Positions 1,901-15,545 of a DNA stretch of 64,000 nt are shown piece after piece. This stretch comes from Candidatus Altimarinota bacterium (lineage in GTDB: Bacteria; Patescibacteriota; Gracilibacteria; BD1-5; UBA6164): NCBI GenBank assembly GCA_025210615.1, contig JAOARJ010000004.1, positions 1-64,000 on the forward strand, written 5' to 3'. The notes beneath the pieces are model-generated. The model made no database searches. It saw only the letters and a list, made by a program, of their open reading frames with translations, and was not told the DNA's origin. Positions within the stretch are counted from its first letter, which is position 1, and every line of letters starts with the position of its first letter. The translations under genes were made by a program, and so were the position numbers.

Positions 1901-2620
1901 ATGATATTTTTAGACGTAGAAACTTCTGGTTTTACAAAAAATAAAATTATAGAATTAGCTTATATAAAACAAGAATTATTAAAAAATAATGAGAATAATA
2001 AAGAAGAAAGATTTGAAAAAAGATATTGATTAGAATTTTGAGAAAAAATAGAATTAGAAGCAATGGCTATTCATCATATAACAGATGAAATGATAGAAGA
2101 TTTACCTATTTTTGAAAAAGATGAAAACTATAATAATTTAATTAATATTTTAAAAAACGATATTTTTGTAGCTCATAATACAAATTTTGATTATCGCGAA
2201 GTTTTAAATGGCATATATAATATAGAAATAGAAAATAGAATTTGCACTTTAAAATTAGCTAGAAGATTATTACCAAAACTACCAAAGCATAGCCTGCAAT
2301 ATTTAAGATATTATTTCAAATTAGATTTCGGAGAAAAAATAGACCCGCACGCGGCTTTAAGCGATGTTATAGTTCTAAAATGAGTATTTTATAAACTCCT
2401 TGAAATAGCTAGACTTGCTTTCCCCAATAAATCTGATGAAGAAATTATAGAGGCTTTTATAAAATTAGAAAAAGAACCTTGTTTATTATATAGTGTTGAA
2501 TTTTGAAAATATAAATGAAGTAAATGGTCAGATATTCCAAAAGATTATTTAGACTGGATAGTTAAGTCTAATCAATTTGATGAAGATATTGTCCATACAG
2601 CAAAACATTATTTAAAATAA
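1901..2620 (+). CDS. DnaQ-like 3'-5' exonuclease with C-terminal DUF3820-like domain
   Basis: Predicted 239-residue DEDDh exonuclease of the polymerase III epsilon / RNase T superfamily. Exo I is FLDVETSG at residues 3-10, Exo II is AHNTNFD in the middle, and Exo III carries HAALSDV with the catalytic His and Asp. The last ~50 residues (FGKYKGSKWSDIPKDYL) resemble the DUF3820 module often fused to such exonucleases. It may act in proofreading or in DNA/RNA trimming; its own operon-less position gives no further hint. The start ATG follows an A/T-only leader without a ribosome site. A strong hairpin terminator follows the stop codon. Confidence 0.85.
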
Positions 2621-2629
2621 AAAATTTAA

Positions 2630-2755
2630 ACAAAAGGAAACCTAGTATTTGTTCTAATACTAGGCTTTTTGAGCGACTCCCTGCTCACAAACTAGCCTCC
2701 CCAGTAACTAGCAAGAAGCAAGGAGCCTAAGGTCTCTGAACCTACAAAGACCTTT
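2630..2755 (-). ncRNA. Candidate structured RNA C (two hairpins plus terminator)
   Basis: No conserved coding frame. Read on the minus strand from a promoter at 2761-2787, it contains a hairpin AAGGTCT / AGACCTT (2729-2754), a three-part stem pairing CTCC, TGCT and CTAG with CTAG, AGCA and GGAG (2677-2724), and the hairpin terminator at 2641-2664. It carries GTTTGTGAG in single-stranded context, a string also present in candidate RNA B. It does not show the conserved cores of tmRNA, RNase P RNA or SRP RNA. Identity unknown. Confidence 0.45.
2641..2670. terminator. Bidirectional terminator
   Basis: Perfect 9-bp stem CCTAGTATT / AATACTAGG with a 6-base loop, followed by CTTTTT on the plus strand and by TTTCCTTTTG on the minus strand. 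It ends the exonuclease transcript and probably the minus-strand RNA at 2630-2755. Confidence 0.85.
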
Positions 2756-2760
2756 ACGGC

Positions 2761-2787
2761 ATTATACCCAATAAAAAACAAAATCAA
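2761..2787 (-). promoter_or_regulatory. Promoter of candidate RNA C
   Basis: Minus strand TTGATT, 15-base spacer, TATAAT. The spacer is short, so the call is weaker than for RNAs A and B. Confidence 0.4.
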
Positions 2788-3035
2788 AAAGAAAAATCCG
2801 GCAAATATTCTACTTTCTAACTATTTTGGTTAGATTTCAAATATCATGCCGGATATTGTTTTTTATGATATCCGTTCATTCATTCGGAGGGGTCGGGGAG
2901 GTGGAGTGAATGAACAAACGGATACCAATTTTTTGGGAGTGATGTATTCCCAAATATTTTGTTTTGCCTAAGTAATCTTTCTTCCGTTTTTAGCCGATCA
3001 TCTAAAAATAAAAGAAGATACTTAAACAAAACAAG
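2786..3035 (-). ncRNA. Candidate structured RNA A
   Basis: About 250 bases without a credible gene, read on the minus strand from the promoter at 3042-3069. Successive stems: a long imperfect stem 2961-2983 / 3010-3032 (core TTTTGCCTAAGTA with TACTTAAACAAAA), TTTGGGA / TCCCAAA at 2932-2954, TATCCGTT...AACGGATA at 2869-2924, and ATCCGGCA / TGCCGGAT at 2796-2854 followed by TTTTTCTTTTT, a convincing intrinsic terminator. The loop of the 2869-2924 hairpin is C-rich and contains CCACCTCCCC and CCCCTCC, i.e. anti-Shine-Dalgarno-like. Function unknown; regulatory RNA is the simplest reading. Confidence 0.55.
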
Positions 3036-3041
3036 AGCGTG

Positions 3042-3069
3042 ATTTTATGAAAATTTTTCTATTTGTCAA
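3042..3069 (-). promoter_or_regulatory. Promoter of candidate RNA A (copy of the RNA B promoter)
   Basis: Minus strand TTGACA, 16-base spacer, TAAAAT. The string AAAACTTTTGACAAATA around the -35 is the same as in the promoter at 3624-3651, showing a duplicated promoter. Confidence 0.7.
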
Positions 3070-3079
3070 AAGTTTTTAG

Positions 3080-3617
3080 AAATAAAAAATCCGACCTATG
3101 TTTATACATATCTCGGATAATATTTTTTGGAAACTCCCTCAGCCATTCCTCACAAACAGCCAAGGGAGTCATGAGAAAGGCGGAGTACCAAGTTGTTGCG
3201 GACTTGGTACTCCTCAATTAGGAGATTTACAAAAATTTTTTAAGGAAGACTTAGCGCGACGGCCAGACAACACTAAGCCTTCCTTTTTTTCAGCTTCTTG
3301 TCACTATCGCGACAACGAGACAGAAGCCCAATAAAATCTCAAGAGAACCTTACACAACCGGGGAAAGCCATGCAAGGTTCTCCTTCGAGGTAAGGTCGCC
3401 AAAAATTTTAAAAAGGTCCTCCTCTTTTTTTATAAGGAGCAGGGTACCACAAACCGAGGAGGACCTAGATAAGAAATTTTCATAGTTATACCAGCAATTG
3501 TTTTTAACAACACTAGTATTTTCCCTTTTAATTTGGGAGGAGGAAGAGTCATCTGCCTTTCGCCGACAATACAGACAACTCTTCCCCAACCACTAACACC
3601 AAAGGGAGTCTATAAGC
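3080..3617 (-). ncRNA. Candidate structured RNA B (about nine consecutive hairpins)
   Basis: About 540 bases read on the minus strand from the promoter at 3624-3651. Consecutive, mutually unrelated stems: 3542-3555/3572-3585 (GGAAGAGT...ACTCTTCC), 3415-3424/3456-3465 (GGTCCTCCTC/GAGGAGGACC), 3343-3351/3374-3382 (GAGAACCTT/AAGGTTCTC), 3293-3298/3322-3327, 3242-3254/3273-3285 (AAGGAAGACTTAG with CTAAGCCTTCCTT), a perfect 12-bp stem 3182-3193/3202-3213, 3133-3139/3163-3169, and a terminator stem ATCCGA/TCGGAT at 3089-3118 followed by TTTTTTATTTC. Base composition is much richer in GC than the neighbouring genes. Short open frames exist but simply run through the stems and resemble nothing known. 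Confidence 0.55.
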
Positions 3618-3623
3618 AAATGA

Positions 3624-3651
3624 ATTATAAAAATATTTTTTTATTTGTCAA
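3624..3651 (-). promoter_or_regulatory. Promoter of candidate RNA B
   Basis: Minus strand TTGACA, 16-base spacer, perfect TATAAT, lying just after the engB stop codon. It matches the promoter at 3042-3069 over most of its length. Confidence 0.75.
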
Positions 3652-3677
3652 AAGTTTTTATTTTTTCTCTTTTTATA

Positions 3678-4265
3678 CTAATCTAATAAATGAAAAATTG
3701 CATTTAATAATTCTTTATGATTCTTCCCTGTTTTAGCACTATAAGTAACAATAGTTTGTCAGAAAAATTTTTCTTTAGCTATTTTTTTGGCCTTAGCTAA
3801 TTCTGATTGTTTTAATTTATCTACTTTATTTAAAACTATCACAGCAGGAATTTGAAGCTCACTCAAGAAATAAAACATATCAATATCATGCTCAGTTGGT
3901 CATACTTTAGCGTCTAAAATAATCACAACTTTTTTAATATTTTCTCAAATATGAGCGATATAATCTGTTATAATTTTATCTATTTTTTCTCTTTGGCTTT
4001 CACTTACTTTAGCAAATCAATATCAAGGTAAGTCCACAAAATAATATTTTTTATTAAGCAAAAATAAATTCGCATGTTTTGTATGACCTGGCTTTGAAGA
4101 AGTTTTTACCAAACTTTTACTTTCAAAAATCGCATTTAAAATAGATGATTTTCATACATTTGACCTCCCTACAAAACATACTTCTGGTTTAGGTTTTCAA
4201 GGAGTAAAAGTTAGTTCAGATGAGCTTGTCACAGATTTTATAAATTCAACACTTTTTATCTTCAT
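3678..4265 (-). CDS. engB: Ribosome-biogenesis GTP-binding protein EngB/YihA
   Basis: Small GTPase needed for late assembly of the large ribosomal subunit. The 195-residue length fits the family. Walker A GRSNVGKSS is at residues 33-41, G3 DLPGYGFA near residue 78, and G4 NKVDK follows. The second Gly of the Walker A is encoded by UGA, which is direct proof of the recoding: a Trp or stop there would destroy the GTPase. Starts with an A/T leader and no ribosome site. Downstream on the same strand lie the candidate structured RNAs, which have their own promoters. Confidence 0.95.
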
Positions 4266-5505: not shown

Positions 5506-5527
5506 TGTTTTAATCAAGCTCTGCTTT

Positions 5528-5593
5528 AGCGTTTGGCTCTACAATATATTCGAAAGAAGCCAAACGCTCTGTGGCTCGGCTAAAAGCCGAGCC
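5528..5593. repeat. Pair of perfect GC-rich hairpins between convergent genes
   Basis: First stem AGCGTTTGGCT / AGCCAAACGCT (5528-5538 with 5558-5568, 11 bp), second stem GGCTCGGC / GCCGAGCC (5573-5580 with 5586-5593, loop TAAAA). Neither is followed by a T tract. They sit between the ends of the membrane-protein gene and rsmE and may work as transcription stops or RNA 3'-end protectors. A similar hairpin pair occurs at 15459-15514. Confidence 0.75.
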
Positions 5594-5610
5594 AAATTCA
5601 GTAGTAATTA

Positions 5611-6312
5611 CTAAATTATATTATTCTGAATTATATAAAAACTTGCTGTTATTGAAGCCGTTTCTATTCTCAAAATATTTCCTCATAAATATATCCCCTC
5701 TCATCAATTTTTCTTAAACTGCTCTATTTCTTCACCACTAAATCATCATTCAGGTCAAACTAATAAATCTATTTTTTCATTATTTTTTATTTGCGAAATA
5801 TGCTTACTATCAATATCTTTTGTATGCAAAAAATAAAATTTTTCTAATTCTTTAAAATCTAATTTATCTATAAAACCTAGCTTTAATAAACCATTTCTAT
5901 TTGATTGCTCTGTCGCTTCTTTGATTATATTTTCTAGTCTAGCTTTTTTATTTTGTGATATTATTAATTTTTGGCTTCTTTCACTATTAAAAAAAGTTAT
6001 TTTATTTACTCAAACTTCCGTGCATTTTTGAATAATTAACTCTATTTTTGATAATTTATTTGGCAATGCTGAATATAAATTTAATTTAAAATTATTATTT
6101 TCTTTTTTTATCTTCTCTAACTTTTTTAACTCTATATTTTTTTTATTTATATTTATTATTTCATATATATTATCTACACTAGAATTCGGCTTAAATAAAA
6201 TAATTTTATCTCAAATCCTACCCCTTAAAACTTTAGATACCTGATGAATAAAATCTTTATCACTAATTATAATTTTATCTTGTAAATCTGAATTTATCAA
6301 AAATCTTTGCAT
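5611..6312 (-). CDS. rsmE: 16S rRNA (uracil1498-N3)-methyltransferase
   Basis: 233-residue SPOUT methyltransferase that modifies U1498 of 16S rRNA using S-adenosylmethionine. The knot signature is clear: LLVGPEGGFSGEEIEQF, and near the C-terminus LGGNILRIETASITA. Several of these glycines are UGA. The N-terminal PUA-like part (MQRFLINSD, VLRGRIGDKIILF) is also typical. Single gene, minus strand, convergent with the membrane protein upstream in coordinate order; divergent from the SanA-like gene at 6373. Confidence 0.92.
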
Positions 6313-15373: not shown

Positions 15374-15458
15374 TATAAATTATATTATTTAAGTATTTTT
15401 ATTTTTTACCTTTCTCTATGTTAAAATAAAGAAATAATAATGATTGTTTCTTTTTATA

Positions 15459-15514
15459 GTGCAGCGCGCATAGCGCGCTGCACATCAGCAGAGCCTTGTT
15501 TTGCAAGGCTCTGC
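15459..15514. repeat. Two perfect GC-rich hairpins inside the efflux operon
   Basis: Stems GTGCAGCGCGC / GCGCGCTGCAC (15459-15483) and GCAGAGCCTTG / CAAGGCTCTGC (15488-15514), both 11 bp without mismatch, in the gap between adaptor and pump genes. Without T tracts they are unlikely to be plain terminators; they may stabilise the adaptor mRNA or partially block read-through. Confidence 0.8.
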
Positions 15515-15545
15515 ATCAATAATCTTTTCTTTATTAATACTAGTA

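Follow-up and report, generated by a model that had tools for sequence, protein, structure and literature searches.

Tandem strings of predicted RNA hairpins in a Gracilibacteria genome, with loops possibly addressed to the RNAs of another bacterium

The DNA analysed here, referred to as the window, is a stretch of 64,000 nucleotides from Candidatus Altimarinota bacterium, the genome of which is called G000 below. Its ORFs are open under code 25, the genetic code in use by Absconditabacteria and Gracilibacteria. Between an engB-like GTPase gene and an exonuclease gene, a structured region occupies positions 2640-3617 on the minus strand. This region holds no credible gene, as had been claimed for about 1 kb in an earlier reading of the same DNA (the original prediction): the code-25 ORFs found in the ORF listing are at most 79 aa long and overlap across both strands. 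The GC content at the locus is 33-44% compared with 17-28% across most of the flanking sequence, in agreement with the claim of a value much above the surroundings. The features of the locus are the following.

3678..4265, minus strand: engB-like GTPase gene, upstream neighbour
3624..3651, minus strand: promoter P1, TTGACA, 16-base spacer, TATAAT (12/12 matches), within the extended motif TTTTGACAAATA
3089..3617, minus strand: predicted RNA 1, about ten hairpins with a terminator at the end (z -10.9)
3540..3587, minus strand: hairpin of RNA 1 with a 19-bp stem (structure prediction)
3408..3472, minus strand: hairpin with a perfect core, GGTCCTCCTC/GAGGAGGACC, and the apical loop UACCCUGCUCC
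3338..3389, minus strand: hairpin of 22 bp, loop UUCCCC
3289..3331, minus strand: hairpin of 15 bp
3242..3285, minus strand: hairpin of 18 bp with a GC-rich apical part, GUUGUCUGGCCGUCGCG
3182..3213, minus strand: perfect 12-bp hairpin, loop CCGCAACA
3132..3170, minus strand: hairpin of 17 bp, apical part UUUGUGAGGAA
3089..3118, minus strand: terminator hairpin of RNA 1, then UUUUU (sequence and fold)
3042..3069, minus strand: promoter P2, TTGACA, 16-base spacer, TAAAAT (11/12 matches), extended motif TTTTGACAAATA
2796..3035, minus strand: predicted RNA 2, four hairpins with a terminator at the end
2866..2927, minus strand: hairpin with a 20-bp AT-rich stem and a 22-base apical loop, ACUCCACCUCCCCGACCCCUCC
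2796..2854, minus strand: terminator hairpin of RNA 2, then UUUUUCUUUUU (sequence and fold)
2761..2787, minus strand: weak promoter P3, TTGATT at 2787-2782, 15-base spacer, TATAAT at 2766-2761 (read from the sequence alone)
2640..2755, minus strand: predicted RNA 3, hairpins 2754-2729 and 2727-2675 and end hairpin 2665-2640
1901..2620, plus strand: exonuclease (RNase_T) gene, converging neighbour

P1 and P2 share one layout, in which TTTTGACAAATA is followed after 12 bases by TATAAT (P1) or TAAAAT (P2), and at up to one mismatch CTTTTGACAAATA is found in the window only at these two promoters. Given their 12/12 and 11/12 matches and 16-base spacers, the two copies of one promoter described in the original prediction hold up. 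For its third, weaker promoter the TTGATT and TATAAT boxes with a 15-base spacer can indeed be read, but P3 is absent from the consensus promoter scan's listing of the window. Across 60 genomes the P1/P2 motif gave 65 matches while the reversed pattern gave 2, hence it is a genuine promoter signature of the lineage. When the 65 motif sites, which belong to 35 genomes, were screened for hairpin density as single loci or as longer stretches, arrays were observed only at two sites of G000 and at one site of G001, a genome from another genus of the same family.

Folding of the minus strand from 3625 to 3085 gave -207.6 kcal/mol (z -10.9) and from 3040 to 2640 -147.2 kcal/mol (z -11.5), none of 100 shuffles being as stable in either case. 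On a window-wide folding scan the array kilobase is a clear outlier with a mean z of -3.6, the runner-up region being at -1.9. It is furthermore the hairpin-densest kilobase in 1.19 Mb (95% of G000), with 194 per 1000 bases in 7-bp stems compared to 122 for the runner-up. About 20 hairpins were extracted, with stems of up to 22-31 bp with mismatches and no two alike, which agrees both with the claim of some fifteen consecutive unrelated hairpins and with the argument that differing stems speak against a repeat array. The units end, as stated earlier, in a hairpin with a T run (3089-3118 and 2796-2854), and the tandem, promoter-driven, structured non-coding units first proposed are thus present as sequence features with terminators, their transcripts being predicted. 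The end hairpin of RNA 3 (2665-2640) is common to the converging exonuclease gene. In terms of predicted structure, the hairpins look like independent modules in which the loops matter rather than like one folded machine. Elsewhere in the window, the intergenic stretches 5521-5640 and 15421-15540 hold GC-rich paired hairpins of very high stability; these are probably strong terminators, and the same hairpin type recurs at L090:15000, L115:12720 and L178:590.

The array was compared with known RNA families and with the genomes of relatives. Searches of Rfam 15 on both strands, at curated and at permissive thresholds, returned chance-level matches only, and no RNase P RNA, tRNA or tmRNA match was obtained at the locus, the RNase P RNA of the genome being located at G000:C4:166254-166626. 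The statement that the region is neither tmRNA nor RNase P and belongs to no matched family is therefore borne out. RNA 1 (3089-3615) was searched against 353 class genomes, among which there are no congeners, and gave only a few short matches of chance size; the engB neighbourhoods of relatives that were fetched contain no array. In a nucleotide search of 60 relatives the matches gather at the two promoter stretches and at other AT-rich stretches, and among those followed up only the match in G001 leads to an array. Hairpin peaks at L090:14701, L115:12501, L133:3201, L045, L118 and L241 were considered as arrays and rejected, as they correspond to terminators, a tRNA or genes. Plasmid and phage collections gave chance matches, mostly AT-rich, and scans of IMG/VR with five window loops gave none or chance-level ones, those inspected sitting in apparent coding sequence. 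An IMG/VR match to the EcpR1 pattern was also rejected since Rfam does not call it EcpR1. No loop of the window array could be assigned to an RNA already known from a bacterium; it is the G001 array that holds the foreign match.

That array was found through a promoter-sized match and lies at G001:C4:237,100-238,040 (L088:12100-13040). Its flanking genes, as named from reading the translations, are a guanylate kinase-like gene and a gene adjoining dnaK. The array consists of a promoter motif of the P1/P2 type followed by about 20 hairpins, with one terminator in its middle and one at its end, and no other kilobase in the scanned part of G001 (0.73 Mb, about 60%) is as dense in hairpins. The two arrays are non-syntenic and their hairpins are different; hence the design is common to both while the sequence is not. 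Past the second terminator of this array, L088:13045-13240 may form further structure, as it contains the palindromic elements TTACGTAA and TTGACTCTTAGAGTCAA.

GOLLD, ROOL and OLE are large ornate bacterial RNAs with a conserved overall fold. The window array is similar to them in size and folding strength but shows neither conservation nor an Rfam match. The original prediction had suggested such a new large structured RNA class, and the very strong folding and the array's own promoters would fit one RNA with a conserved fold. However, RNA 1 does not recur in the 353 class genomes, the engB neighbourhoods of the relatives fetched are devoid of arrays, no Rfam family matches and the array of G001 lies elsewhere with other hairpins, so that this suggestion, already weakened, is unsupported and appears most improbable. 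A function at the level of DNA, as recombination or protein-binding sites, or an origin as mobile-element debris was considered as well, given that each hairpin is at the same time an inverted repeat of the DNA and that the arrays are non-syntenic. Yet one and the same strong promoter precedes both arrays, which run in a single orientation and have terminators, and according to the translations of the neighbouring genes no integrase or transposase adjoins the array in the window; we thus give this explanation very little weight.

Within the G001 array a match to EcpR1 (RF02500) was detected when 74 kb were searched with all families; it scores 84.3 bits against a cut-off of 60 (E 2.7e-10) and spans model positions 1-113 of 113. 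None of the 353 class genomes has another EcpR1 match; at the same cut-off of 60 bits none was obtained in the window or elsewhere in G000, and none was seen in 380 further genomes from the phylum, searched without a positive control. EcpR1 is a small RNA hitherto known only from Rhizobiales that base-pairs with and silences dnaA and gcrA mRNA; the rhizobial RNA is a single two-hairpin molecule encoded downstream of divK-pleD, with an essential SL1 loop, UCCGCCGCAUCU, and the motif UCCUCG in SL2 (PMC4414408). The G001 array has both EcpR1 hairpins in order with their loops kept: the SL1 loop, UUCGCCGCAUCU, agrees with the essential sequence at 11/12 and SL2 reads CCUCCUCG, in which UCCUCG is present. 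The stems have been rebuilt with pairing kept while both regulatory loops are almost letter-identical, a picture of working loops on variable stems in which the EcpR1 parts kept are the functional ones. In contrast to the rhizobial RNA (also named Atu_C6), which acts on the dnaA and gcrA of its own cell, the copy in G001 is a single module of an array of about 20, in a bacterium from another phylum, and the window's genome has no match. Contamination is unlikely because the array lies on a 267-kb contig with code-25 genes around it. A complement of the 12-base SL1 loop, at up to one mismatch, is found in G001 only within the array itself.

Start regions and loops were then compared for Shine-Dalgarno words. 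Taking the first ATG of long frames as uncurated ORF starts, GGAGG was found before 1 of 731 ORFs in G000 (expected 0.4) and before 2 of 361 in G001 (expected 1.7); Shine-Dalgarno words are thus not in use in the start regions of either genome. In G001, GGAG is slightly more frequent than expected before genes (14 vs 7.2). The 731 start regions of G000 have a G content of 2-7% per position. Most other sampled relatives show a similar lack of Shine-Dalgarno signal, GGAG being weakly over-represented in G026 and G022. The 16S rRNA, sought for its 3' end, was not found in the G000 or G001 assembly. The loops differ in this respect: on predicted structures and with modest numbers, Shine-Dalgarno or anti-Shine-Dalgarno 5-mers are carried by 4 of 20 apical loops of the window array (0.96 in shuffles; reached by 1 of 200) and by 7 of 21 in the G001 array (1.2 in shuffles; reached by 0 of 200). 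In the window array CCTCC is enriched 21-fold and CTCCC 31-fold over the genome rate. The apical loop ACUCCACCUCCCCGACCCCUCC of hairpin 2866..2927 holds anti-Shine-Dalgarno words, and the loop ACUGGGGAGG of the RNA 3 hairpin 2727-2675 is Shine-Dalgarno-like.

A comparable build is known from the alpha-r14 RNAs, each of which has several hairpins whose stems vary greatly and whose loops are anti-Shine-Dalgarno (PMC3927594, PMC10746234). The array modules resemble regulators of Shine-Dalgarno-using bacteria because alpha-r14/NfeR1 RNAs (SmelA075, SmelA099) share this build of hairpin strings with anti-Shine-Dalgarno loops. The likeness does not extend to the sequence of the loops. Indeed, CCUCCUCCC, the anti-Shine-Dalgarno word of the rhizobial alpha-r14 RNAs (PMC3927594), stands there in every loop, unpaired in each of three hairpins, whereas the loops of the window differ from one another and a single copy of the word is present, at 3543-3535, on the 3' side of hairpin 3540..3587 and predicted paired.

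Repetition within the array was also considered, as the words GTTTGTG and GTTGTC each occur in three copies. Many hairpins in one RNA are likewise a feature of the decoy RNAs CsrB and RsmZ, and together these features would suit a decoy for an RNA-binding protein, as in CsrB, or for the ribosome. However, no motif is common to most loops, GGA is found in a small minority of the window loops and not in most apical ones, and the excess of repeated 6-mers is modest (54 vs 40 +/- 8). A decoy of this kind is in our view improbable.

The main competing explanation is that the small RNAs form an ordinary cluster which evolves rapidly and regulates genes of its own cell, EcpR1 having been acquired by G001 from a rhizobial neighbour and repurposed. 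Tandem small RNAs with their own promoters are common in bacteria, and two window loops, 2954-2932 and 2754-2729, show weak, marginal matches to the genome's own start regions (1 of 15 shuffles as good). Overall, however, twelve window loops paired with these regions no better than shuffled loops did. Given this lack of excess pairing, the absence from G001 of an own complement of the EcpR1 SL1 loop outside the array and the presence of Shine-Dalgarno and anti-Shine-Dalgarno loops in genomes that do not use such words, regulation of own genes is weakened and we regard it as rather unlikely.

The reading that we prefer, tentatively and at somewhat short of even odds, is that the window locus encodes small RNAs of several hairpins each, the loops of which would target RNAs in a second bacterium that uses Shine-Dalgarno sequences and is probably the host. 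For the window array it is derived from the G001 array together with the loop statistics. The tiny bacterium belongs to a group that depends on hosts, and one Absconditabacterium whose lifestyle is known feeds on another bacterium as its host (PMC8080830). The array is possibly private to its species and host-directed. According to this host-directed model, two to three trans-acting small RNAs would be transcribed from P1, P2 and P3, each one a string of independent hairpins displaying short regulatory loops, where the stems would serve as scaffolds and the apical loops as working parts. The loops would address RNAs of a Shine-Dalgarno-using host or prey, a proposal that draws mainly on G001. 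Some would imitate small RNAs of the host, by anti-Shine-Dalgarno or target-specific seeds, while others would imitate its ribosome-binding sites and act as decoys for its small RNAs, and the outcome would be a change in host translation. Delivery of the RNAs into the host is assumed in the model.

If the host-directed model is true, such arrays would be RNA effectors in which each loop is a readable host address label, and therefore could be used to predict on which hosts uncultured epibionts live. Should the RNAs instead act in their own cell, hairpin arrays private to a species and a borrowed rhizobial RNA in genomes without Shine-Dalgarno use would still call for an explanation.

Two further structured RNA candidates were observed in G000. 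At L174:6380-6540 (G000:C6, about 166,380-166,540) a structured small RNA is predicted (z -5.0) with a promoter-like TTGATT/TATAAT, a GGACCUCCUUGG hairpin, a 10-bp GGCCCCCUUG/CAAGGGGGCC stem around a tRNA-like GGGGGUGUAGCUCAAU stretch and a terminator; Rfam returned nothing for that stretch at E values up to 1, and the RNA resembles one module of the window array. The other, at L007:1555-1705 (G000:C9, about 82,870-83,020) beside a promoter-like match, is a predicted branched and very stable RNA of about 150 nt (z -7.9); it has no Rfam match at curated thresholds and is possibly an unrecognised RNA of the lineage.
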